A DNA stretch of 53,388 nucleotides. Origin: a virus. The stretch spans positions 1-53,388 of the IMG/VR virus record IMGVR_UViG_3300048924_000228. One strand, written 5' to 3'. Both the position numbers and the translations under genes were made by a program. Position 1 is the stretch's first letter; every line of letters starts with the position of its first letter. A model generated the notes under the pieces. It was not told the origin of the DNA. It saw only the letters and a program-made list of their open reading frames with translations, and ran no database searches. Positions 23,247-43,675 of this stretch are shown one piece after another.

Positions 23247-23281
23247 CAGGTGCGGAACAACACCTGTTTCGCTTATCCACA
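23247..23281. promoter_or_regulatory. DnaA box and adjacent hairpin
   Basis: TTATCCACA at 23273-23281 is a perfect consensus DnaA box in the only sizeable spacer of this half of the genome (23136-23294). Directly beside it, CAGGTG and CACCTG (about 23247-23266) form an inverted repeat with an eight-base loop. The host DnaA or the phage's own DnaA-domain protein (30147-30746) could bind here. Confidence 0.6.
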
Positions 23282-24150: not shown

Positions 24151-24367
24151 CAGACAGGCTCTTTGCCTTGACCGCGTCCTCTGCCTCGTAAAACCGCAGC
24201 AGACCGCGCGCGGCCTCGGCGGAACGACGAGCATTCGCCCGCATTCCTGCAACGTCTCCGCTCTCCTTCGCTTTTTTGTCGAGAAACGGCAACAACCAGT
24301 CAATGTGCTGAGACAATTCACGGATTGCCGTTGAGAGCTTTTTTACTCGCTCATTGTCTAGCGTCAT
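24143..24367 (-). CDS. Hypothetical helical early protein
   Basis: 74 residues, wholly helical in pattern (LDNERVKKLSTAIRELSQHI, then NARRSAEAARGLLRFYEAED). No family recognised. ATGA overlap with the NusG-like gene upstream. Confidence 0.6.
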   Translation of the reverse strand: MTLDNERVKKLSTAIRELSQHIDWLLPFLDKKAKESGDVAGMRANARRSAEAARGLLRFYEAEDAVKAKSLSDE

Positions 24368-24897
24368 GCTGCCACCACAATGTTAGCCGGCAGCGTATGC
24401 CGGATCATGCCCAACAGTACCTCAATGCGGCCTTTGGTGTCGATCCGGTCCACCGTCGCCACCAGGCCGGCATAGGCACCACCGTCAGCGTCCACACGCA
24501 CCTGATCGCCGTGCTTCCACGCCACGCCGGCGCGCGCTCGCGTCTCTGCCAACCACGTCTGCTGCTCCTGCATCTGCTTGCGGAACACCGCGACCACAGC
24601 CGCGTGCGGCAGCTTGACGAAGTCGCCGCGCTCATTCCGCATGAAGTCGCGGACGCCTCGCGTCGCCTTCACCGCATCGACGTCATCGGCTCGAATACGC
24701 AGGAAGCCGTACCCCGGGAACATCGGCTTGGCGATCACGCGCGTCACCTTGTGGCCGTTCTTGCCCGTCCGTCCGGTCTTCACACGCCTCCGGATCACCG
24801 GAACGAACATCTCGAGCCCGAGCTCGTGTAGCCGCCAAACCGTCGTCAGGTCTTGCTGCGGCTGGACCAGCATCACATACCAAGGCGCATCGATCAT
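24364..24897 (-). CDS. NusG-like transcription elongation / antitermination factor
   Basis: 177 residues. The N-terminal NGN domain shows APWYVMLVQPQQD, EMFVPVIRRRVK and the diagnostic AKPMFPGYGFLRI. The C-terminal 60 residues are a KOW module (WKHGDQVRVDADGGAYAGLV, then RIEVLLGMIRHTLP). The ATG at 24897 follows GGAG by 8 nt. Proteins of this kind (NusG/RfaH) bind RNA polymerase and suppress pausing or termination. Placed at the head of the downstream half of the operon, it could let polymerase run through the long minus-strand late region; that target is inference. Confidence 0.85.
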   Translation of the reverse strand: MIDAPWYVMLVQPQQDLTTVWRLHELGLEMFVPVIRRRVKTGRTGKNGHKVTRVIAKPMFPGYGFLRIRADDVDAVKATRGVRDFMRNERGDFVKLPHAAVVAVFRKQMQEQQTWLAETRARAGVAWKHGDQVRVDADGGAYAGLVATVDRIDTKGRIEVLLGMIRHTLPANIVVAA

Positions 24898-25166
24898 GCT
24901 CCACTCCAATTCTTGAAAAACAACGACTCATCGGCAAGTCCGCCGCAGGCAGGCAGATGTTCCTCGACCGCGATTTCCGGCACGGGCCGCGGCGCACCAA
25001 TCCCATCCCGCGACGCCTGCTCTACCAGCCGCCAAATCCTATCCTGCTCCGCGATCTCCGCGGTCCTGTCGACCTCGTATCCAGCATATGGATCAGATTC
25101 AGGCGCACGAGGCTTGAGGCCAAAGTCGATCCGCCGCAGCGGCGCCCTGTGCTCTACGACGTTCAC
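24894..25166 (-). CDS. Hypothetical early protein
   Basis: 90 residues from a GTG at 25166 preceded by GGAGGG. The GTG overlaps the upstream TGA (GTGA). Acidic helical centre (AEIAEQDRIWRLVEQA), two cysteines apart. No family recognised. Its stop overlaps the NusG-like start. Confidence 0.55.
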   Translation of the reverse strand: MNVVEHRAPLRRIDFGLKPRAPESDPYAGYEVDRTAEIAEQDRIWRLVEQASRDGIGAPRPVPEIAVEEHLPACGGLADESLFFKNWSGA

Positions 25167-25539: not shown

Positions 25540-25760
25540 GCCGAGTCCTCCGCTTCGGGCCACGGCTTCGGCCCGACCGATACCAATTCGTCAATCATGA
25601 TCTCACCATCGATCTGAACGAACAGCGTAACGCGAACCTCCGCAATTTCTCCGATAACCTGCTTCACGCTCAGCGCGCGGCACTCCAACGGAACGTCGTC
25701 CAGCGTGACGGTACCCATGCCGTTGAGGCCTAACTTGAACTTGAGTGTCTTTGCGCTCAC
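25536..25760 (-). CDS. Hypothetical early protein
   Basis: 74 residues, all-beta in pattern (TLKFKLGLNGMGTVTLDDVP, then EVRVTLFVQIDGEIMIDELV). No motif recognised. ATGA overlap with the replication gene. Confidence 0.6.
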   Translation of the reverse strand: MSAKTLKFKLGLNGMGTVTLDDVPLECRALSVKQVIGEIAEVRVTLFVQIDGEIMIDELVSVGPKPWPEAEDSA

Positions 25761-26812
25761 GCTGCGTCCTCCGACCTTGGTGCGAGCTTCTCGCCCGTCG
25801 CTTCGTCGTACCCATCAGGCACGGCCTTGGAACTGAAGAAACCGCGTTGCGTGACGCCGTCCCGATCGATCTCGATCAGCTTTGGCGGCCGAGCCTTTCG
25901 CGTCTGCGCCTCGTGAACGAAGGCCGCCATTTCGACGGTTCCCTCGACGATGAAGTGCCAGCCTGGCCCGATATCATTGCCGGTTGCTGGATCGATGTTT
26001 GCCTCGACCAGCACGTGCGCCGGACAGCGACAGCCGAACATTCCCGGCTCCGGCCCAGCGTGCCGCGACCACAGCGACCGGTTGGCCTTGAACCGGCTCA
26101 CGGTCGATCGCCAATCGTCGTCGGTCAGCGGCACCGGCTCGAGCGATGGCGGAGGTGCCCCGGCTTTGGCGTGCGCCTCACGGACGGTCTGGTCGCAGTA
26201 GGCCAGCGACGCCATGTCTGTTTTGCGCTTAAGCACCGGAGGCACGGCCTTGGAAATCGTTCCGACCGAGATCCCGTCGAGCAGCCAAGTTTTGATGATG
26301 GCCATGTCCGGCGCCTTTGGCCTGGTAGCGCACTCAGCCACAAACGCAGCTTTCAGCATCGCTTCCTGCTTCAAACCAATTTCATCAAGCGCGCGCCCGT
26401 CTGCTCTGCTCTGCTCTGTATCTGCTCTGCTCTGCTCTGGGGCCGTTTCATGGAACGTGTCTGAAACGTTTCGTGTAACGGCAGGTGAAACGTTTCGTTT
26501 CTTATCCCGATGCCGTTTCACCCGTTCCGTCGAACTATCTGATATGAACTGACGATCGTCCCAATTATGTGGCCGAAAGACGCCGTCTTGGTTATCGATC
26601 AACTTCGCCTTGACGAGCTCGGCGATCCACAACGCCACCTTGGAAGGCTTCAAGCGCAGGCGCACAGCGATATCGGCCGCCGGCGGCAGCACGCCACCAT
26701 TTGCAGAGGCGATGCACTGAAGCGTGAACCAAGCCCTGTGCATTGTGTCCGAAAGCTTCAGCAGCTTCGGATGGTCGATCGCGTCGTCGTATGCGCGCCA
26801 CCAATGCGTCAT
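25757..26812 (-). CDS. Replication initiator-like protein (winged-helix, gpO/DnaD type)
   Basis: 351 residues. The N-terminal 95 residues have a winged-helix pattern typical of phage replication proteins (HWWRAYDDAIDHPKLLKLSD, then RLRLKPSKVALWIAELVKAK and DNQDGVFRPHNW). A low-complexity hinge (about 100-140) is encoded by the repeat cluster at 26400-26520. The C-terminal half has a CRCPAH cluster. This arrangement is that of lambda O, where initiator-binding iterons lie inside the initiator gene. No helicase or polymerase is encoded, so host enzymes must be recruited. Confidence 0.7.
   Translation of the reverse strand: MTHWWRAYDDAIDHPKLLKLSDTMHRAWFTLQCIASANGGVLPPAADIAVRLRLKPSKVALWIAELVKAKLIDNQDGVFRPHNWDDRQFISDSSTERVKRHRDKKRNVSPAVTRNVSDTFHETAPEQSRADTEQSRADGRALDEIGLKQEAMLKAAFVAECATRPKAPDMAIIKTWLLDGISVGTISKAVPPVLKRKTDMASLAYCDQTVREAHAKAGAPPPSLEPVPLTDDDWRSTVSRFKANRSLWSRHAGPEPGMFGCRCPAHVLVEANIDPATGNDIGPGWHFIVEGTVEMAAFVHEAQTRKARPPKLIEIDRDGVTQRGFFSSKAVPDGYDEATGEKLAPRSEDAA
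26400..26520. repeat. Repeat cluster / candidate replication origin inside the initiator gene
   Basis: Two perfect 19-bp direct repeats (TCTGCTCTGCTCTGCTCTG at 26400-26418 and 26421-26439) are followed by two copies of TGAAACGTTTCGT at 26462-26474 and 26486-26498, spaced 24 bp, each containing the palindrome GAAACGTTTC. Single CCGTTTCA boxes flank them at 26443 and 26513. Position and regular spacing fit iterons bound by the protein encoded here. Confidence 0.6.
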
Positions 26813-26992: not shown

Positions 26993-27008
26993 TGTTTCAC
27001 GTGAAACG
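26993..27008. promoter_or_regulatory. parS-like centromere site
   Basis: TGTTTCACGTGAAACG matches the bacterial chromosomal parS consensus TGTTTCACGTGAAACA at 15 of 16 positions. It lies just upstream of the 26809-26988 gene in a 25-bp spacer. No ParA or ParB gene is present in the window, so host ParB would be the partner. Confidence 0.65.
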
Positions 27009-27013
27009 CCGCC

Positions 27014-27373
27014 CTATTTGGCGTTGTAATTGAACACCTGAAGGCCGAGCGCGTATGCGGTGGCGACCTCGGCCTGTGCGCCCTTGCTGTTTTCCCAGCC
27101 CGGCAGCACGGCTACGGCGTCCGCGTGGAGGCAGATGAACTCCAGGTCGTCCTTCAGCGCCTCTCGAAGATTGAAGCCATAGACGGCAGCCGCAAGTGCT
27201 TCGTCGCCGGCTTCGTTGCCCTTCGAGATGTCGACGCCGTGGTGCTCGATATCGCGCTCCGCAGGGTTGAACACCTCGTGCCCTTCTAAGCGCAGCCGAG
27301 CGGTTGCCTCATGGAAGGACGGAAAGTTAAATTCAGGAATGCCGCGCATCGGGCCCGCCACGTAGATCTTCAT
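27014..27373 (-). CDS. DUF4406 / nucleoside 2-deoxyribosyltransferase-like protein
   Basis: 119 residues: KIYVAGPMRGIPEFNFPSFH at the start, GHEVFNPAERD, then LEFICLHADAVAVLPGWENS and GAQAEVATAYALGL. These are the landmarks of DUF4406, a small phage branch of the nucleoside deoxyribosyltransferase fold. Could act in nucleotide metabolism; the substrate is not known. Confidence 0.8.
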   Translation of the reverse strand: MKIYVAGPMRGIPEFNFPSFHEATARLRLEGHEVFNPAERDIEHHGVDISKGNEAGDEALAAAVYGFNLREALKDDLEFICLHADAVAVLPGWENSKGAQAEVATAYALGLQVFNYNAK

Positions 27374-27597
27374 GCCACCTCCTCCAAATCCTGATCAATT
27401 TCGAGCTCGCAGACCGGAACCGCGCTCTTCTCCGTCGGGAGCCGCTCCGTGCCCCGCCAGTATTCCTTCCAGTGAACCGGCCGACCGTCTTCTCCGACCT
27501 CATGCCTGGACACGCAGATCATGCCGCAGCGCCGGCAATGCTTCAGAGATCGAAAGACGGATGGGCGCTCTTTGTCGCCCCACTTGTGGGTGCTCAT
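27370..27597 (-). CDS. Zinc-ribbon protein
   Basis: 75 residues with HCRRCGMICVSRHE near the N-terminus and a later single Cys. A short metal-binding protein of unknown role. 4-nt overlaps on both sides. Confidence 0.55.
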   Translation of the reverse strand: MSTHKWGDKERPSVFRSLKHCRRCGMICVSRHEVGEDGRPVHWKEYWRGTERLPTEKSAVPVCELEIDQDLEEVA

Positions 27598-28937
27598 TCG
27601 GCCGCTCCCGGAATGGCGAAGAGAGACCCGGCCTCGAATGGCAGATCCCCCACCTTCGCTTTGATGGATTCCCGCTTCCGTTCCTCAGGTCCCGCCATGA
27701 CGAGCGCCATGCGCCGCCGGATGTCCGCCTGGTATTCTTCCTCGCGCTCTATCAAGACGGCCTTGAAGCCTTCCCGGAATGCCGCCTCGCCTGTTGTGCC
27801 GGTCCCGGCGAAGGGGTCGAGCACCGTCCCGCCCTTTGGCGTTACCAGCCTGCAGAGCCATTGCATGAGGTCGACAGGCTTAACGGTCGGATGCTTGGAG
27901 CCGAGGCGATCGTCTGCGTCTGCTTTTGCGGTGTAGAAAAACCGCGCCGCAGAGCCCGAATCCGAAAAAACAGGATGGAATTCTCTTGGCCTGGTATCAG
28001 ATCCAAATATCTTGTTTTCGCGAATTGAGCCTTCATTGCTGGGAGCGTGCGCATCCCCAACAATCGGGAACGCCGCGATTACCTCTTCACTGCCGTCGTG
28101 GACGACGTTTGCAGGCCATCGGCCCTTCTCAGAACTACCCACTCGAACGCCGGCGTAGCCGCCCTCATAGACATTCTTTGCCATCTTGTCTGATGACCAG
28201 TCGCCCTTGCCGCCTAGTCGGGGGTCATCCCCATCACTTAATCCGACCCTGCACCCATCAATGTTAACAGCCCCGGTGCCGTGCTCGATCCAATTTGCCG
28301 CCACGGTGCCGGAAATCGGTTTGCGTCCAAAGCAGATAGGCTCACACGCCGGCTTTAGTGCCGTACCCCAGCCAGCGGCGGCGGCGGCGGTAATGGGGTC
28401 TCCCTTGTCGGTCCGCTCGTACTCGGTTCCCTTAGCGACCTGATCCGAGATCGTGACCGCGCCAGCCCGACCGCGCCAATGCCCAGCCGACTTGTCCAGT
28501 TGCTTGCTGACGTCGTGACTTTTCGGGAAGCCGCTACCATAAAGCCACGACAGCATGTCCCGGACTTCAAAGCCCGCATCCTCGATCGCGCAGGCCATCC
28601 GGTGATAGGTTCGAGTCCCCGAGAACGCGACAACATGGCCGCCCGGTTTCAAGACGCGCAGGCACTCCGCCCAGAACTCAGTCGCGAATGCCGTTTCCCC
28701 GGTGTCCCAGGCCTTGCCCATGAAGCCGGCGGACGCGCGCGCATAGGCGCCGCTACCATCTTCAGGCACCTTCACGGCCGCGCTGCCGGCCTTGCCGAAC
28801 CGCTTAACGATCGACACCAGCGCGTAGGGCGGATCTGTCACGATGCTGTCGATCGAGCAATCAGCGATGCCCTTGAGCACCTCCCGATTGTCGCCGCCGT
28901 GCAGCATGACCTTGCCGTCCAGGAACGTTTCAGCCAC
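27594..28937 (-). CDS. DNA methyltransferase (N6-adenine or N4-cytosine, beta-type order)
   Basis: 447 residues from a GTG at 28937 preceded by GGAGG. The catalytic motif TDPPYALVSIVKRFG is at residues 34-48, and the cofactor motif VLDPFAGTGTTGEAAF with KHPTVKPVDLMQWL just before it is near residue 375, so the motif order is that of beta-class enzymes. The middle contains RTYHRMACAIEDAGFEVRDM and YGSGFPKSHDVSK, a phage subgroup distinct from host CcrM. Likely modifies phage DNA against restriction; an effect on the GcrA-type regulation encoded nearby is possible. Confidence 0.9.
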   Translation of the reverse strand: MAETFLDGKVMLHGGDNREVLKGIADCSIDSIVTDPPYALVSIVKRFGKAGSAAVKVPEDGSGAYARASAGFMGKAWDTGETAFATEFWAECLRVLKPGGHVVAFSGTRTYHRMACAIEDAGFEVRDMLSWLYGSGFPKSHDVSKQLDKSAGHWRGRAGAVTISDQVAKGTEYERTDKGDPITAAAAAGWGTALKPACEPICFGRKPISGTVAANWIEHGTGAVNIDGCRVGLSDGDDPRLGGKGDWSSDKMAKNVYEGGYAGVRVGSSEKGRWPANVVHDGSEEVIAAFPIVGDAHAPSNEGSIRENKIFGSDTRPREFHPVFSDSGSAARFFYTAKADADDRLGSKHPTVKPVDLMQWLCRLVTPKGGTVLDPFAGTGTTGEAAFREGFKAVLIEREEEYQADIRRRMALVMAGPEERKRESIKAKVGDLPFEAGSLFAIPGAAE

Positions 28938-29103
28938 GGCGCGCCGCCTCCCGGATATGAAACAGACGGTTCGCGACCTCGGACTCGTGCACGCCGAGCC
29001 GCCTTGCGATGTCCAGCGTGTCAATTCCCTGCTTCCACAGCGCCAAGATCAGGCCGTCGTCGACGTCAGTTGTCGCCCCGGTACTCTGCATGCGCGTATT
29101 CAT
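28930..29103 (-). CDS. Small helix-turn-helix protein
   Basis: 57 residues from the ATG at 29103. GLILALWKQGIDTLDIARRL, then GVHESEVANRLFHIRE forms a tri-helical DNA-binding unit. ATGA overlap upstream; the stop overlaps the methyltransferase start by 8 nt. Confidence 0.6.
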   Translation of the reverse strand: MNTRMQSTGATTDVDDGLILALWKQGIDTLDIARRLGVHESEVANRLFHIREAARRG

Positions 29104-29348
29104 GCGGCCCTCAATTCTGAGGCCATAGAGCGCCATCGCAGCACCTTCTGCCACCGCATGATGCTGGCCTCGTGCGACTTGAACGCCTCCCGACGCATCG
29201 ACAGCGACTGGCAGATGCTGGCGCGGCTCTCGCCGGCCGACAACGCGTCATAGACGGCGCGCCGCCGGGTCCCGGTGCGCGGAATCATCCATCCCCGCGC
29301 GTCGCGCTGGTTTTGCAGTTGGCCGGCTTTCCTGCCCCTGGCGCTCAC
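29100..29348 (-). CDS. Hypothetical DNA-binding-like protein
   Basis: 82 residues from a GTG at 29348 overlapping the upstream TGA. Strongly basic, with a helix-turn-helix-like RRRAVYDALSAGESRASICQ. No family recognised. Confidence 0.55.
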   Translation of the reverse strand: MSARGRKAGQLQNQRDARGWMIPRTGTRRRAVYDALSAGESRASICQSLSMRREAFKSHEASIMRWQKVLRWRSMASELRAA

Positions 29349-29695
29349 GCGCGGCTCCCGTGGAACACGCCAGACCGGTACACTGGGTAATTGTGCTTGT
29401 GCTTCAGCGGATCGCTCAGGCACGGCTTTACGGTGCCGGTGCGCAGCAAGATGCCTTCCTTGATCGCCTTGAGCCACACGGCGCCCCAAGCGTTGGGATG
29501 GCTCGGCTGCACCTTGCAGTGCCTGAGGATGTCGTCGACGTGTACCTCGACCTGCCGGCGCGCGACGTGGCAGATCGCGGCATAGGCCACCTCGCCGAAG
29601 TCGCTGACCAGCGCCTCCGCAAATTCAGCCTCGACGATGCCGACGTCGCGCGCGCAGCCCGCTGCATAGTCGTCAAATGAGAGCTGTTGCGCCAT
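29345..29695 (-). CDS. Hypothetical early protein, possibly winged-helix
   Basis: 116 residues: ICHVARRQVEVHVDDILRHC, then NAWGAVWLKAIKEGILLRTG and KHKHNYPVYRSGVFH. A pattern common in rhizobial phages; the middle looks like a winged helix. Function unknown. One-base overlap with the GcrA gene. Confidence 0.6.
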   Translation of the reverse strand: MAQQLSFDDYAAGCARDVGIVEAEFAEALVSDFGEVAYAAICHVARRQVEVHVDDILRHCKVQPSHPNAWGAVWLKAIKEGILLRTGTVKPCLSDPLKHKHNYPVYRSGVFHGSRA

Positions 29696-30150
29696 CAGCC
29701 CTCCACCGGCAACGCGGCCGTATTCGCCATTGCCTCCGCCAGCATGTTGCGGCGCTCCCGCACCGTCATGTCAGGCAGGAATCCGAGCTGGTTGCGGTAG
29801 TTGGGATGCGTCTTGCTCGTGCCCTTCCGCACAACCGGCGCGACGAACGTGGTCTGGGCCGGCCGCAAGATGGCCGGTCCTTCGAAATAGTGGGTCGAAA
29901 CCACGATGCTCTTTGGCGCCGGCCGTGGCCTGGACCGTTCGGCGAAACGGCGCACCTCAATACGTTTCGCGATCACGCTGCCGCCAGTGTACCTCTTGTC
30001 GGCCAGATTGAGCCGGTGAGCCTTGCCCAAGATGGCGTTGCGCGTCGTGCCGAGACTATCGGCAATCATCCGCGCCGAAAGCGAGTCATCATCCCACAGC
30101 GAACGCAGACGCTCGACCCGGTCCTCCGTCCAGAATCCAACCGGCGTCAT
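29695..30150 (-). CDS. GcrA-like cell-cycle transcription regulator
   Basis: 151 residues. The N-terminal 50 residues (FWTEDRVERLRSLWDDD, LSARMIADSLGTTRNAILGK, AHRLNL) match the GcrA DNA-binding domain. The rest is basic and Pro-rich, with PNYRNQLGFLPDMTVRERRN at the C-terminus instead of the host sigma-binding domain. Host GcrA activates promoters carrying methylated GANTC sites through sigma-70. Encoded between a DnaA-domain protein and a methyltransferase. Confidence 0.85.
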   Translation of the reverse strand: MTPVGFWTEDRVERLRSLWDDDSLSARMIADSLGTTRNAILGKAHRLNLADKRYTGGSVIAKRIEVRRFAERSRPRPAPKSIVVSTHYFEGPAILRPAQTTFVAPVVRKGTSKTHPNYRNQLGFLPDMTVRERRNMLAEAMANTAALPVEG

Positions 30151-30746
30151 GCTGCCCTCATAAATTCGTCGATCTGCGCCGACAGATGGTCGATATCTGC
30201 ATTAAGATCCTCGTCCACCATCAAGAGGCGCTCGATCTTGCGGATACCCGAGAGAATGGAAGTATGATCACGGCCGCCGAAGTTGCGCCCGATCTCCGGC
30301 AGAGACTTCAAGGTCTTCATCTTACAAAGGTAGTAGCCGACCTGGCGGGGCCGCACGATATTCGCGGTCCTCCGTTGAGCGTTAATATCGTGGACCTTGA
30401 CGTCATAGAAATCCGCCACGGCCCGTTGAATGTCCTGGATGCGTGGATACTTCCGCCTCGGTAGCTCCGTTGGCGGATCTCTCACAATGACGAGATCGAA
30501 GAACCACATCACGTGATACCAAGGTTGCGAGAAGGTCTCTTTCTTTGTCTCAATCCACCTCCTGACGGCTGGATCGATGGCTTCTAAAGGTTGATCAACG
30601 GCACGGGGCGCCGGATTAATTGTCGGACGATTCTTACCGAAGAAATTCTGACGGCGCCGCTTGACCTCAGCGACCCGTTGCCGTGGCGTTAGCCGCATGT
30701 ACGGATCGTCGTGAACAAGCGCCGCCGTCGACTGCATAGTCTGCAT
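30147..30746 (-). CDS. DnaA domain-IV-containing protein
   Basis: 199 residues preceded by a strong GAGGAGG site. Residues about 120-185 are a DnaA DNA-binding domain: VADFYDVKVHDINAQRRTAN, RPRQVGYYLCKMKTLKSLPE and the signature GGRDHTSILSGIRKI. The AAA+ ATPase domain is missing; the N-terminal half is unlike host DnaA. Such proteins could bind DnaA boxes as regulators or competitors. A perfect DnaA box lies at 23273. Confidence 0.88.
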   Translation of the reverse strand: MQTMQSTAALVHDDPYMRLTPRQRVAEVKRRRQNFFGKNRPTINPAPRAVDQPLEAIDPAVRRWIETKKETFSQPWYHVMWFFDLVIVRDPPTELPRRKYPRIQDIQRAVADFYDVKVHDINAQRRTANIVRPRQVGYYLCKMKTLKSLPEIGRNFGGRDHTSILSGIRKIERLLMVDEDLNADIDHLSAQIDEFMRAA

Positions 30747-30809: not shown

Positions 30810-31298
30810 TCAGCGCCGCCGCGGAGCCAACGAACGAGCCGGGTAAGGCTGGCCCGAATAGAAATCCTCGTCTTGAAGAAGCAGGGCAGCCGCGTTCGGC
30901 GATTGGCTTGCGTCATCGAGCAATTCCCGGAGTTTGCGGCGCTGCTTGCGTTCGGCGGTGGCGAGGTCGACCGATGCCATCCAGGCCTTCAGCTTCATCC
31001 ACCAGCGCGGCGTGTTGTTGGTCATCACCGCTGCGAGGAATTCGCGGCCCCATTCGCTCCGAAGCAGGGCAGCGAGCGCGTCACCGGGGATCGTGGCCTT
31101 TCCGGACAGCCAGTATTCGCAATTGCGCAGCGAATATCCCGTGATGTCAGCGAGATGCAGCGCGGTCTTCACAGGGAAAACGGCGCGCGACCGCTCCATC
31201 AATTCGACCGTCAACCGCAATGCTCTGCGGCGGTTACCGCAATGATCTGCGGTGACGAAATTTGCGCGATTGTCCGATATGGCCGATGCTGGCGCCAT
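30810..31298 (-). CDS. Phage regulatory protein with helix-turn-helix
   Basis: 162 residues. TALHLADITGYSLRNCEYWL, then SGKATIPGDALAALL is a helix-turn-helix of the kind seen in alphaproteobacterial phage regulators, followed by an acidic C-terminus. Start at 31298 is uncertain; ATG 31199 is an alternative. First securely placed gene of the left early operon. Confidence 0.65.
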   Translation of the reverse strand: MAPASAISDNRANFVTADHCGNRRRALRLTVELMERSRAVFPVKTALHLADITGYSLRNCEYWLSGKATIPGDALAALLRSEWGREFLAAVMTNNTPRWWMKLKAWMASVDLATAERKQRRKLRELLDDASQSPNAAALLLQDEDFYSGQPYPARSLAPRRR

Positions 31299-31304
31299 GA
31301 TGAC

Positions 31305-31715
31305 TTACACCCCTGATGAGATTGATGGTTGTTGTTCCGCGATTGCGATCACGGTTGCAGTACGCAACGTGCGGGAGTTTTTACGAGCGCGATCAGCGGT
31401 CGCTACCGATGCACAACGAGTCGAAGCGACCGCGTCACGGATCCGGACTCCCATCCGGATTACAGAAGAAAATGCGGAGGCGTCGTTAAACGCCTCCGCC
31501 AGTAACGGCGCGCCCTGGGAGGAAAGCGTCGGGGGCAACGCGCGCACCGTTTCCAAATTGCATTCACAAATCGTCCTGCCGCACACCGGGCAGGAATATT
31601 TGGCCGCCGTTGCGGACTTCGAAACAAAAACGGCCGCCACCGATGCGCAGGGCTGGTTGCGCTCAGTGACGGCCGCGTCGATCCCCGGATGGGGAAGTAA
31701 AATGCGCCGCATCAT
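31305..31715 (-). CDS. Uncertain small protein upstream of the regulator
   Basis: 136 residues. The stretch KYSCPVCGRTICECNLE resembles a zinc knuckle, and the frame ends a few bases before the regulator start, which favours a real gene. The opposite strand is also open over the same bases and has a more RNY-like codon pattern, so the call may be wrong. No strong ribosome site. Confidence 0.35.
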   Translation of the reverse strand: MMRRILLPHPGIDAAVTERNQPCASVAAVFVSKSATAAKYSCPVCGRTICECNLETVRALPPTLSSQGAPLLAEAFNDASAFSSVIRMGVRIRDAVASTRCASVATADRARKNSRTLRTATVIAIAEQQPSISSGV

Positions 31716-31867: not shown

Positions 31868-32125
31868 ATGCCATACAGCGACGAGGACCTGATCGAGCAG
31901 GCCATGAACATGCCGCTCACCTACTGCGATGGTTTTGGAGCGTATCGGAAGGTCAATGGCGTACTTCGGACGATCGGATTCGTCTTGCAGGGCGGCGCAA
32001 ATTTGAACCTCGCGTGCTCGCTTGTCGGAGCCGACGATGCCCAAGCCGCGACCGCAAAAGCCTTGAGACTCAAGGAACCCGCCAAGGGCATCACGATCTG
32101 GAATGGAACAAATCTGGCGCATTAG
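31868..32125 (+). CDS. Hypothetical protein of the immunity region
   Basis: 85 residues from the ATG at 31868, preceded by GGGGGTGAG. PLTYCDGFGAYRKVNGVLRT, then GADDAQAATAKALRL is a compact alpha-beta pattern found in related phages with no function. Ends 3 nt over the 3' end of the convergent Cro-like gene. Confidence 0.6.
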   Translation: MPYSDEDLIEQAMNMPLTYCDGFGAYRKVNGVLRTIGFVLQGGANLNLACSLVGADDAQAATAKALRLKEPAKGITIWNGTNLAH

Positions 32126-32340
32126 GCGGCGCCCTGCTGCATATCCACGAAGTCATTGGCGGTGACGGCACCAGCGGTTGCACGCGCAATCGCGGCCATC
32201 TTATCGCGACCGGGCCAAGCGGTGCCGTCGCAATACATCGTCACCATGATCGGAGTCACGTTGATCGCGGCCGCAAACTGATTGCGACGCTTTCTCGTGC
32301 CGTCGGGATTAGGGATTGCAAGCCAATCTGCGAGCTTCAT
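32122..32340 (-). CDS. Cro/YdaS-like DNA-binding protein, probable leaderless start
   Basis: 72 residues: KLADWLAIPNPDGTRKRRNQ, then FAAAINVTPIMVTMYCDGTA and WPGRDKMAAIARATAGAV, a Cro/YdaS-type helix-turn-helix. Start codons at 32361 and 32349 would fall in or beside the operator, so the ATG at 32340 is chosen; it lies where the promoter inside the operator would begin transcription. Divergent to the repressor gene. Confidence 0.75.
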   Translation of the reverse strand: MKLADWLAIPNPDGTRKRRNQFAAAINVTPIMVTMYCDGTAWPGRDKMAAIARATAGAVTANDFVDMQQGAA

Positions 32341-32348
32341 AAAGCTCA

Positions 32349-32376
32349 TATAGCACAGCAATAATTATAGCACAAC
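32349..32376 (-). promoter_or_regulatory. Operator/promoter O1 (28 bp) in front of the Cro-like gene
   Basis: The plus strand has two TATAGCAC half-sites (32349 and 32366) in the same direction, 17 bp apart. On the minus strand this becomes a promoter with -35 TTGTGC and -10 TATATG, spacer 17. Twenty-four of the 28 bases recur in inverted orientation at 33248-33275. Likely bound by the adjacent repressor and/or Cro-like protein. Confidence 0.7.
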
Positions 32377-32383
32377 AAGAAAT

Positions 32384-32415: not shown

Positions 32416-32820
32416 ATGCTAACTTATAGTATGACTAGAAAAACAACCCCACTCCCCAGGACCAAACCCGAAAAGGTAGTCCGAACACGGTTTAAGACCG
32501 TCGTTCGTCCCCCCAAGCAATTCTTCCGGCAATGGCGAAAACATCGGAATATGACCCTTGAGCAGGTCGCCGTCGAATCTGGAATGACAGCCGGGAACAT
32601 CTCCGCCATGGAGCGCGGCGAGCAAGGCTACACGCCGGCAGGACTGCAAGCGCTCGCCCAAGTCTACAAAACCAACCCCGGCTGGCTCCTGGACGTTAAC
32701 CCTCTCGAGGAGGATGAGGGCCTGATGTCTATTCTCGGGCGTGCCACAGATACGGAGAAGCGCATGATTGCTGACATCGCAAAGACTATCGTCGGAAAGA
32801 CTGGAACCGGCGAGCGATGA
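32416..32820 (+). CDS. XRE-family phage repressor
   Basis: 134 residues (or 129 from the ATG at 32431). A basic arm of about 30 residues precedes an XRE helix-turn-helix: WRKHRNMTLEQVAVESGMTA, then GNISAMERGEQGYTPAGLQA and LAQVYKTNPGWLLDV. There is no peptidase domain, so induction is not through classical RecA cleavage. Coupled by ATGA to the downstream lipoprotein. Confidence 0.8.
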   Translation: MLTYSMTRKTTPLPRTKPEKVVRTRFKTVVRPPKQFFRQWRKHRNMTLEQVAVESGMTAGNISAMERGEQGYTPAGLQALAQVYKTNPGWLLDVNPLEEDEGLMSILGRATDTEKRMIADIAKTIVGKTGTGER

Positions 32821-33247: not shown

Positions 33248-33275
33248 GTTGTGCAATAACTATTGTGGTGCTATA
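33248..33275 (+). promoter_or_regulatory. Operator/promoter O2 (28 bp) of the rightward early operon
   Basis: Inverted copy of the site at 32349-32376, identical at 24 of 28 positions. Plus-strand promoter elements are embedded: -35 TTGTGC (33249-33254) and -10 TATAAA (33272-33277), spacer 17. Transcription would begin about 33284, 20 nt before the first gene. Repressor bound here would silence the long plus-strand operon. Confidence 0.7.
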
Positions 33276-33304
33276 AACTCCTCCATTGGATTTTGGAGGG
33301 GAAG

Positions 33305-33922
33305 ATGGCCAATCGGCTTACCAACGACATTCGCGAAAGCCTTGCCTTCGCGGTTCTGCGCCATCGTTTTGCGGCGGACGTCGCTGCGTTAGTTCGTGAC
33401 TGGGCCACCTTCGCGGATGAGATTTACTGCGATGTCTACCGTAGGACCGACCGCGATCGCATGGCGGCCCTTCCTGAGGGTTGGCTGCCTACCTGCACTC
33501 ACGTTACCGCAAAGTTCGGCGAGCTTGGCTCTGGCTATGCGCAGGTCGCGTTCGATGGTCGGATCGGGAGTAACGTACTTGGCCGCTTTCAGAAGCATGT
33601 TAGCGGTCGCGGTGAATTCCGCCGCGTCCTCAACAAGCACGCTGGCGCGTGCTCGAAAGCCTACGATCAAGGCCACAAACTTTCGAAGCGCCACGAAGAC
33701 CTTCGTTCGCGCCAAGGAGCCCTTGAGCAAGCGATCCGTGAATCGCAGAAGCAAATAGAGGTTGCACTCAACGGCGTAACGACGGCGTCGGCTTTGGTGA
33801 AAGCTTGGCCGGAGATGGAGCCGTTCATTAAGCCATACCTCGGCTCGGAAAAGGTCGTTCCTGCCATTCCCACCGGAAAGTTGAACGAGATTTTCAAGCT
33901 TCCCGTCAAGGAGGCTGCGTAG
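33305..33922 (+). CDS. First gene of rightward operon; possibly an Nmad5-type DNA modification protein
   Basis: 205 residues. ATG 33305 follows GGAGGGG by 4-5 nt. LTNDIRESLAFAVLRHRF, EIYCDVYRRTDRDRMAALPE and GWLPT resemble the family called putative nucleotide modification associated domain 5, found in phages next to other DNA-modification genes. The match is from memory of the pattern, not a search. A Gln/Glu-rich helix fills residues 125-155. Confidence 0.45.
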   Translation: MANRLTNDIRESLAFAVLRHRFAADVAALVRDWATFADEIYCDVYRRTDRDRMAALPEGWLPTCTHVTAKFGELGSGYAQVAFDGRIGSNVLGRFQKHVSGRGEFRRVLNKHAGACSKAYDQGHKLSKRHEDLRSRQGALEQAIRESQKQIEVALNGVTTASALVKAWPEMEPFIKPYLGSEKVVPAIPTGKLNEIFKLPVKEAA

Positions 33923-42333: not shown

Positions 42334-42515
42334 GCCGCACACCAGCCCGCGTGACGCAAGCTGATGTCGCCCGCGCGATCCGCGCGGCGCAACAATGCAA
42401 CGCGGGCATGGTCAGGATCACGAAGGACGGCGAGATATTGATTGACCCGATTCCGGGGAAACGACGGGAACCGGATGAAAATGAAGTTGCGCCGAAGCGG
42501 AGGATCGTTCTTTGA
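42330..42515 (+). CDS. Small protein paired with the integrase
   Basis: 61 residues: TPARVTQADVARAIRAAQQC, then VRITKDGEILIDPIPGKR. Proteins of this pattern precede tyrosine integrases in many rhizobial phages and islands; an excisionase-like role is plausible. Its stop overlaps the integrase start (TTGA). Confidence 0.6.
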   Translation: MSRTPARVTQADVARAIRAAQQCNAGMVRITKDGEILIDPIPGKRREPDENEVAPKRRIVL

Positions 42516-43675
42516 TCGCCGCCATGCCCCGCCCCCGGAAGCCCTATCTGCACCGTCAGAAGAACCGCCATGGCCAGCACGTCTGGTATGTGCGCAAGGG
42601 GAAGGGCCCGCGCTATCGGTTGAGGGCTGAGTTTGGCTCGGACGAGTTCAACGCACAGTATGATGCCGCGATCCAGGGCAAGCTCCCCAAGCGTGGCCAG
42701 ACCACCGCCGGCACGCTGCGCTGGCTGTGGGACGCTTATCGGAAGACAGGCGCATGGAAGGTGCTCTCACCCGCAACGCGCAAGCAGCGCGAGAACATCA
42801 TGCTGCATGTCTTGAAGGGAGCCGGGGACGAAGCGTTCGGGGCGCTGGACAGCGGCGATATCACCGAGGGCCTTGACCGGCGAGCTGATACGCCGTCTGC
42901 GGCGCGCAACTTCCTCGACACCATGCGCGGGCTCTATCAATGGGCTAAGAGCCGCGGACACGTGCGCAAAGATCCGACTGCCGACGTGAAGCCACCCAAG
43001 CGTCGCCGGAATGCCGGCTTCGCTCCGTGGACCCATGAGGACGTGGACGCCTATTACAAGCGCTGGCCACTCGGCACGCCGCAGCGGGTCTGGATTGACG
43101 TGCTGCTCTACACGGGCTTGCGCCGCGGCGATGCCGCACTGGTCGGGCCCGGGCACATCAAGAACGGCTTTATTGAGATCCTGACTGAGAAGAGCCAGGA
43201 GATGGTCTTGGTGACGCTGCCCGTCCTCGACGTGCTGCAAGCGACCCTTGATGTCGGCCCGATCGGCACCGAGACATGGATTGTCGGGGAGCGTGGCCAC
43301 CGCTTCGTCAAGGAATCGTTCGGCAATGCCTTCTCCGAGGCCGCTAGCGCAGCCGGCGTGAAGAAGAGCGCTCACGGGGTCCGGAAGATCGCAGCCACCA
43401 TCGCGGCCGAGAACGGCGCTACGGAGTCGGAACTAGACGCCCTGTTCGGTTGGACCGGCGGGCGCATGGCGGCGCACTACACGAAGACCGCGAACCGCGC
43501 GAAACTGGCGAAACAATCGGCTGAAAAGCTGAAATCTATTCCCTCACCGCTTGCAAAAGTGGGGGCGCGAGAGCAGAATACGCTTACAGATCAACACATT
43601 AACAAAGGGCTGGTGGGGGAAGAAGAAGTCAAATCCTCTAACCGGCCCAATCACTTACAGAAAAGTGAGGGCTAA
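42512..43675 (+). CDS. int: Tyrosine-type site-specific integrase
   Basis: 387 residues. A TTG at 42512 is chosen because GGAGG lies 8 nt upstream; the ATG at 42524 has none. The SAM-like core-binding domain spans about 65-155. Catalytic residues: Arg in YTGLRRGDA, HxxR in SAHGVRK, a Trp in place of the second His in FGWTGG, and the nucleophile Tyr in AAHYTKTANR. The last 45 residues are a linker-like extension. Embedded in the early operon rather than flanked by an obvious attachment site. Confidence 0.93.
   Translation: MIAAMPRPRKPYLHRQKNRHGQHVWYVRKGKGPRYRLRAEFGSDEFNAQYDAAIQGKLPKRGQTTAGTLRWLWDAYRKTGAWKVLSPATRKQRENIMLHVLKGAGDEAFGALDSGDITEGLDRRADTPSAARNFLDTMRGLYQWAKSRGHVRKDPTADVKPPKRRRNAGFAPWTHEDVDAYYKRWPLGTPQRVWIDVLLYTGLRRGDAALVGPGHIKNGFIEILTEKSQEMVLVTLPVLDVLQATLDVGPIGTETWIVGERGHRFVKESFGNAFSEAASAAGVKKSAHGVRKIAATIAAENGATESELDALFGWTGGRMAAHYTKTANRAKLAKQSAEKLKSIPSPLAKVGAREQNTLTDQHINKGLVGEEEVKSSNRPNHLQKSEG

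Follow-up and report, generated by a model that had tools for sequence, protein, structure and literature searches.

A GcrA-like protein, a DnaA DNA-binding domain and a DNA methyltransferase encoded together in a likely early operon of a temperate alphaproteobacterial phage

The window analysed here is the whole of the IMG/VR virus record IMGVR_UViG_3300048924_000228 (53,388 bases), the genome of a temperate phage of an alphaproteobacterium. On its (-) strand a gene for a DnaA DNA-binding domain, a gene for a GcrA-like protein and a gene for a DNA methyltransferase are encoded in what is likely one operon. Since such pairings recur in other phages, they suggest a phage-owned regulatory module and not a simple copy of the host cell-cycle clock. 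In the reading that we tentatively favour, at close to even probability, this is an early module in which the methyltransferase would write a mark, the GcrA-like protein would bind DNA without directly activating RNA polymerase, and the DnaA-domain protein would act on replication together with a DnaD-like protein. The three genes are the following.

30147-30746, (-) strand: 199-amino-acid protein with DnaA domain IV only (PF08299; 1j1v)
29695-30150, (-) strand: 151-amino-acid GcrA-like protein (PF07750; 5yiu; shared C-terminal motif)
27594-28937, (-) strand: 447-amino-acid beta-class DPPY DNA methyltransferase of the PHROG 67 family

Overlaps of stop and start codons link the consecutive genes from 30746 to 28930, that is, from the DnaA-domain gene through to the methyltransferase gene, and therefore a single operon is likely. 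The original prediction had placed the three genes in one operon at these positions, and the overlaps justify the term on anatomical grounds.

Recurrent pairings among the three genes

Among 50 virus records carrying this methyltransferase, some of them fragments, nine also contain a GcrA-family gene; in each of the nine contigs this gene lies upstream of the methyltransferase, the strand being the same and the gap between them -37 to 1063 nucleotides. The window (757 nucleotides) and the cultured Caulobacter phage DMCA (870 nucleotides) bring the number of cases to eleven, with the same order and strand in all of them. The GcrA-linked enzymes are scattered on the methyltransferase tree (7 parsimony changes, where shuffling gave 8.6 on average), at least three of these changes being forced by well-supported branches, and the pairing therefore arose or was kept repeatedly. 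The contig L045 matches a prophage-like locus (L110) of Kaistia soli DSM 19436. The methyltransferase appears to be split over two open reading frames in L045 (7983-9312) and in L047 (2289-4256). The GcrA domain lies within long reading frames in L019 (6808-7992, 394 amino acids) and L026 (6646-7992, 448 amino acids), the stop codons of which overlap the methyltransferase start by 4 bases.

Phage DMCA (PQ480021; L289 6480-9326) carries, in this order, the GcrA gene DMCA_084, two small genes, the methyltransferase gene DMCA_087 and a replicative helicase gene. DMCA_087 belongs to the same family as the window enzyme (54.6% identity), and GcrA stands upstream on the same strand in both phages. 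Unlike the window protein, the GcrA of DMCA keeps its sigma-interacting domain and, again unlike the window, DMCA showed no DnaA domain IV by Pfam. DMCA_085 was considered as a degenerate DnaA domain; it was a weak candidate, unsupported by hhalign or Pfam. Searches of the open-access literature brought up neither the linkage nor the GcrA truncation, and both appear to be new. Separate publications already describe GcrA homologues of phages (PMC3556154) and a CcrM-like specificity of phage enzymes (PMC5537653).

The DnaA-domain gene is tied to GcrA in a similar manner. A DNA pattern of the GcrA recognition helix retrieved at least 120 virus loci, nearly all of which encode a GcrA domain. Among the matches listed, the loci with both domains had the DnaA-domain and GcrA genes at most 700 nucleotides apart in 10 of 14 and on the same strand in 14 of 14. 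Random placement gave a mean of 2.9 such neighbours and a maximum of 8 in 2000 permutations, a null that ignores operon structure, so that the surprise of the adjacency is somewhat overstated. The window and three further loci (L002, L233 and L234, the first two being near-copies at this locus) have the DnaA-domain gene followed by the GcrA-like gene, and L002 also contains the methyltransferase and replication genes, ordered as in the window. Single-protein scans of viral contigs returned no relatives of the window's DnaA-domain and GcrA-like proteins.

A serious rival, which we consider possible, is mere co-location: a methyltransferase for anti-restriction, a generic helix-turn-helix regulator and a protein for replication would share an early operon and have no joint function. 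Enzymes of this methyltransferase family are common in phages that infect non-alphaproteobacterial hosts (mycobacterial, Arthrobacter, Salmonella, Klebsiella, Pseudomonas and archaeal phages), and a further small helix-turn-helix-like gene lies within the operon. GcrA is missing from 41 of the 50 methyltransferase records (some of them fragments), and the pairing is therefore optional. Early phage operons gather regulators anyway, the window holds no cluster of DnaA boxes, and in L002 and L233 the helix-turn-helix of GcrA has drifted, so that the reading of methylated DNA need not be kept and may have been lost there. These last four points weigh directly against the module that we favour. Against co-location stand the position of GcrA closely upstream and on the same strand in all eleven cases, over scattered enzyme lineages, and the adjacency of the DnaA-domain and GcrA genes above random placement.

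The methyltransferase and the truncated GcrA

The 447-amino-acid protein matched PF01555 (1.5e-26) and PHROG 67 (1.3e-69) and has the beta-class order of motifs, with DPPY first (residues 35-38) and FxGxG late (DPFAGTGT, about residues 374-381). DPPY was present in 23 of 23 aligned methyltransferase rows, and none of them has an NPPW/Y/F motif. The program-listed TTG start at 29024 is probably wrong; the GTG at 28937 fits the family alignment. The DNA methyltransferase of the original prediction is thus present, but it is not the CcrM of the host by the measures of its sequence: it scored 59 bits with the CcrM equivalog model NF050803, the cut-off of which is 830, and it aligns with 6pbd only as far as residue 270 of that 366-residue chain, the window protein ending 26 residues further, so that it lacks the CcrM C-terminal extension. 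Because the enzyme is not CcrM, lacks the extension and belongs to a phage-wide family, GANTC specificity is without support and the motif is probably a different one. The predicted structure is poor in its middle part (predicted local distance difference test, pLDDT, below 50 over residues 215-352), and therefore no specificity was drawn from it.

Phage GANTC methyltransferases are known from Sinorhizobium and Paracoccus prophages and are of the NPPW/Y/F type (PMC5537653). Those of phiLM21 (p027) and Phi2/Phi3LM21 (p21) resemble the window enzyme in that an adenine methyltransferase gene lies in or beside the replication module of an alphaproteobacterial phage; they differ from it in carrying NPPW/Y/F motifs where the window has a DPPY beta-class enzyme (PMC5537653). 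Of the 16 XYNY'X' palindromes, GANTC shows the strongest depletion in the window, where it reaches 0.68 of the frequency expected from a maximum-order Markov estimate. The depletion was alike in relatives that have GcrA and in those that lack it (medians 0.57 and 0.63, p = 0.37), and it therefore fits the host and not this enzyme. We rejected it as a sign of a GANTC enzyme; it fits life in CcrM-bearing hosts and is no guide to the window methyltransferase.

That the GcrA-like protein has a different C-terminus, as had been predicted, was borne out by our searches. PF07750 matched only residues 7-63 of its 151 amino acids (2.7e-12), a model of the host DNA-binding domain scored 53 bits, and the structure of the GcrA DNA-binding domain 5yiu was matched at 4.9e-8. 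Residues 7-53 are 51-56% identical to two host GcrA domains. The N-terminal pattern W...LxxLW...SA..IA..LG.TRNA..GK.HRL is shared with GcrA of Caulobacter crescentus and other Alphaproteobacteria (PF07750; 5yiu, 5yix, 7ye1). Cellular GcrA has a C-terminal sigma-interacting domain, for which no match was found in the window protein, and a short conserved helix motif stands in its place. The sigma-interacting domain was present in 75 of 116 phage GcrAs in a GcrA-centred sample, among the matches listed; it marks the common phage form, and the window belongs to a truncated minority. Because the domain is missing, activation through the usual sigma contact is not expected.

The C-terminal motif, SKTxPxYRNQL...MLAxAxxNT, is common to the window, L002, L233 and L234, and its conservation among them is at least that of the helix-turn-helix. 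In the predicted model of the protein the DNA-binding fold is confident, the linker is disordered and the C-terminal helix (residues 130-145) is moderately confident, and this helix may be an interaction peptide in place of the sigma contact. A few other alphaproteobacterial genes carry fragments of the motif. A first GcrA alignment was too diverse as a search query; the alignment of the GcrA-like protein matched 387 of 397 genomes, although in the listed matches it was mainly the DNA-binding domain that aligned, the part shared with host GcrA; the C-terminal motif alone matched 2 of 397. Another phage-encoded GcrA relative is gp222 of phiCbK-like phages, which has been proposed to alter the host replicative state (PMC3556154). 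PhiCbK is a large swarmer-cell-tropic siphophage, and the available part of its description mentions no linked methyltransferase or DnaA-domain gene (PMC3556154).

The DnaA domain, replication signals and neighbouring genes

The prediction of a DnaA DNA-binding domain without its ATPase agrees with the domain searches. PF08299 matched only residues 103-171 of the 199-amino-acid protein (7.5e-25), DnaA models matched it only over about residues 96-195, and domain and DnaA model searches found no AAA+ ATPase domain III. Escherichia coli DnaA domain IV (1j1v) matched at E = 8.5e-20, and the RDHT signature is present, GGRDHTS aligning with GGRDHTT of E. coli. In the alignment to 1j1v, the E. coli DnaA-box contact residues R399, R407, Q408, D433, H434 and T435 have kept equivalents, and H439 is replaced by Ser. 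Because the AAA+ domain is missing, the protein would be able to bind DNA, but it would not be expected to cycle ATP or to oligomerise as DnaA usually does. A stand-alone DnaA domain IV is likewise encoded by the Bradyrhizobium phages ppBeUSDA76-2 and ppBjS10J-1 and the Rhizobium phage RHph_N28_2. In the two Bradyrhizobium phages the gene lies in the early region, as in the window, and has no GcrA neighbour, unlike in the window; downstream of it are replication-type proteins (a DUF1376 protein; by eye, a relative of the window replication protein).

The (-) strand gene train runs below the cI/cro-like region, from a 162-amino-acid protein down to the DnaD-like replication protein. Besides the three main genes it has the following features; a gene for a 75-amino-acid protein lies between the methyltransferase and DUF4406 genes, and one for a 63-amino-acid protein between the DUF4406 and replication genes.

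30810-31298, (-) strand: 162-amino-acid early protein, first of the run; no Pfam match; homologue in L028
29345-29695, (-) strand: 116-amino-acid protein
29100-29348, (-) strand: 82-amino-acid protein with a GTG start; stop/start overlap with both neighbours
28930-29103, (-) strand: 57-amino-acid helix-turn-helix-like protein; weak Sigma70_r4_2/HTH matches, below cut-off; overlaps the methyltransferase start
27014-27373, (-) strand: DUF4406 protein (PF14359, 9.8e-20)
26993-27008: parS-like site TGTTTCACGTGAAACG, 15 of 16 bases of TGTTTCACGTGAAACA, at the start of the 63-amino-acid reading frame
26462-26498: two TGAAACGTTTCGT repeats, 24 bp apart, inside the replication gene and beside its lowest local GC content
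25757-26812, (-) strand: replication-initiation or DnaD-like, helicase-loader-type protein (phrog_3926, 1.9e-14; phrog_10469, 2.3e-7)

The window also encodes a tyrosine integrase (42512-43675, (+) strand) and terminase, head and tail proteins. A cI-like gene (32416-32820, (+) strand) and a small gene that weakly matches HTH_3 (32122-32361, (-) strand) point away from each other. These genes identify the phage as temperate. Between the cI-like and cro-like genes are 17-bp tandem repeats (TATAGCACA..., 32349-32382), likely operators, and between the cro-like region and the operon is a strong terminator-like hairpin of 11 pairs (31474-31499). A NusG/RfaH-like antiterminator gene lies at 24364-24909. 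A protein with nucleotide-modification-associated domain 5 (Nmad5) is encoded at 33263-33922 and possibly adds a further DNA-modification function.

Of the two sites that the original prediction had seen nearby, the parS site was confirmed, just outside the predicted interval: none of 100 shuffles gave a 15/16 match. No ParB gene was found in the record, and the parS core was absent from the other loci searched for it; the ParB of the host could bind the phage genome at this site. The DnaA box fared less well. The one exact TTATCCACA, at 23273, is 4.3 kb away, an exact match occurred in 11 of 100 shuffles, and boxes with one mismatch numbered 8 in the window against 9.9 expected. A DnaA-box origin was rejected on these near-chance numbers; the TGAAACGTTTCGT repeats are a possible candidate phage origin. 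Among bacterial loci, the methyltransferase closest to that of the window (65%) comes from an Afipia genome, and therefore the host may be within the Nitrobacteraceae. Each of 8 bacterial genomes with this methyltransferase locus has one full-length GcrA of its own, with weaker extra copies in some.

The original prediction had further proposed a cell-cycle kit, a trio that imitates or overrides host DnaA, GcrA and CcrM so that phage replication keeps time with the host cycle, or so that this cycle is forced. An interest of alphaproteobacterial phages in the host cycle has been proposed before (PMC9437464), and both GANTC-specific enzymes and a GcrA homologue are known from phages (PMC5537653, PMC3556154). 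The homology of the parts to host regulators and the recurrence of the grouping stand: the GcrA DNA-binding domain is close to those of hosts, the DnaA-box contacts are mostly kept, a Caulobacter phage carries the pair of GcrA and methyltransferase, and the window has a host-type parS. The mimicry itself we consider improbable, given a methyltransferase that is not CcrM, a GcrA-like protein missing its sigma-interacting domain, DnaA boxes that are not enriched, and a GANTC depletion that follows the host and not this enzyme.

A proposed phage-owned module and its meaning

The module that we favour would be built out of the DNA-binding portions of host cell-cycle regulators and run early by the phage. 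The methyltransferase would mark DNA at a motif, probably one other than GANTC, and the GcrA-like protein would bind DNA at its targets through the GcrA-type domain. As it has no sigma-interacting domain, it would probably be a competitor or repressor, or would recruit a phage partner by its C-terminal helix. The DnaA-domain-IV protein would bind DnaA-box-like DNA free of ATP control and would act in phage replication with the downstream DnaD-like protein, or would itself be a repressor. A broader claim, which we regard as doubtful, is that alphaproteobacterial phages repeatedly built their own writer-reader switch from an orphan methyltransferase and a GcrA-type reader of a phage-specific mark, and that in the window lineage the reader lost its contact with RNA polymerase and pairs with an ATPase-free DnaA for replication.

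Phage GcrA homologues and GANTC methyltransferases have so far been noted singly, as signs of phage interest in the host cycle. The repeated pairing of a GcrA-type reader with a methyltransferase that is not of the CcrM type, found also in a cultured Caulobacter phage, makes the choice between a methylation-dependent regulon of the phage's own and that of the host directly testable. A GcrA devoid of its sigma domain and a DnaA devoid of its ATPase would be natural dominant-negative tools for the alphaproteobacterial cell cycle.

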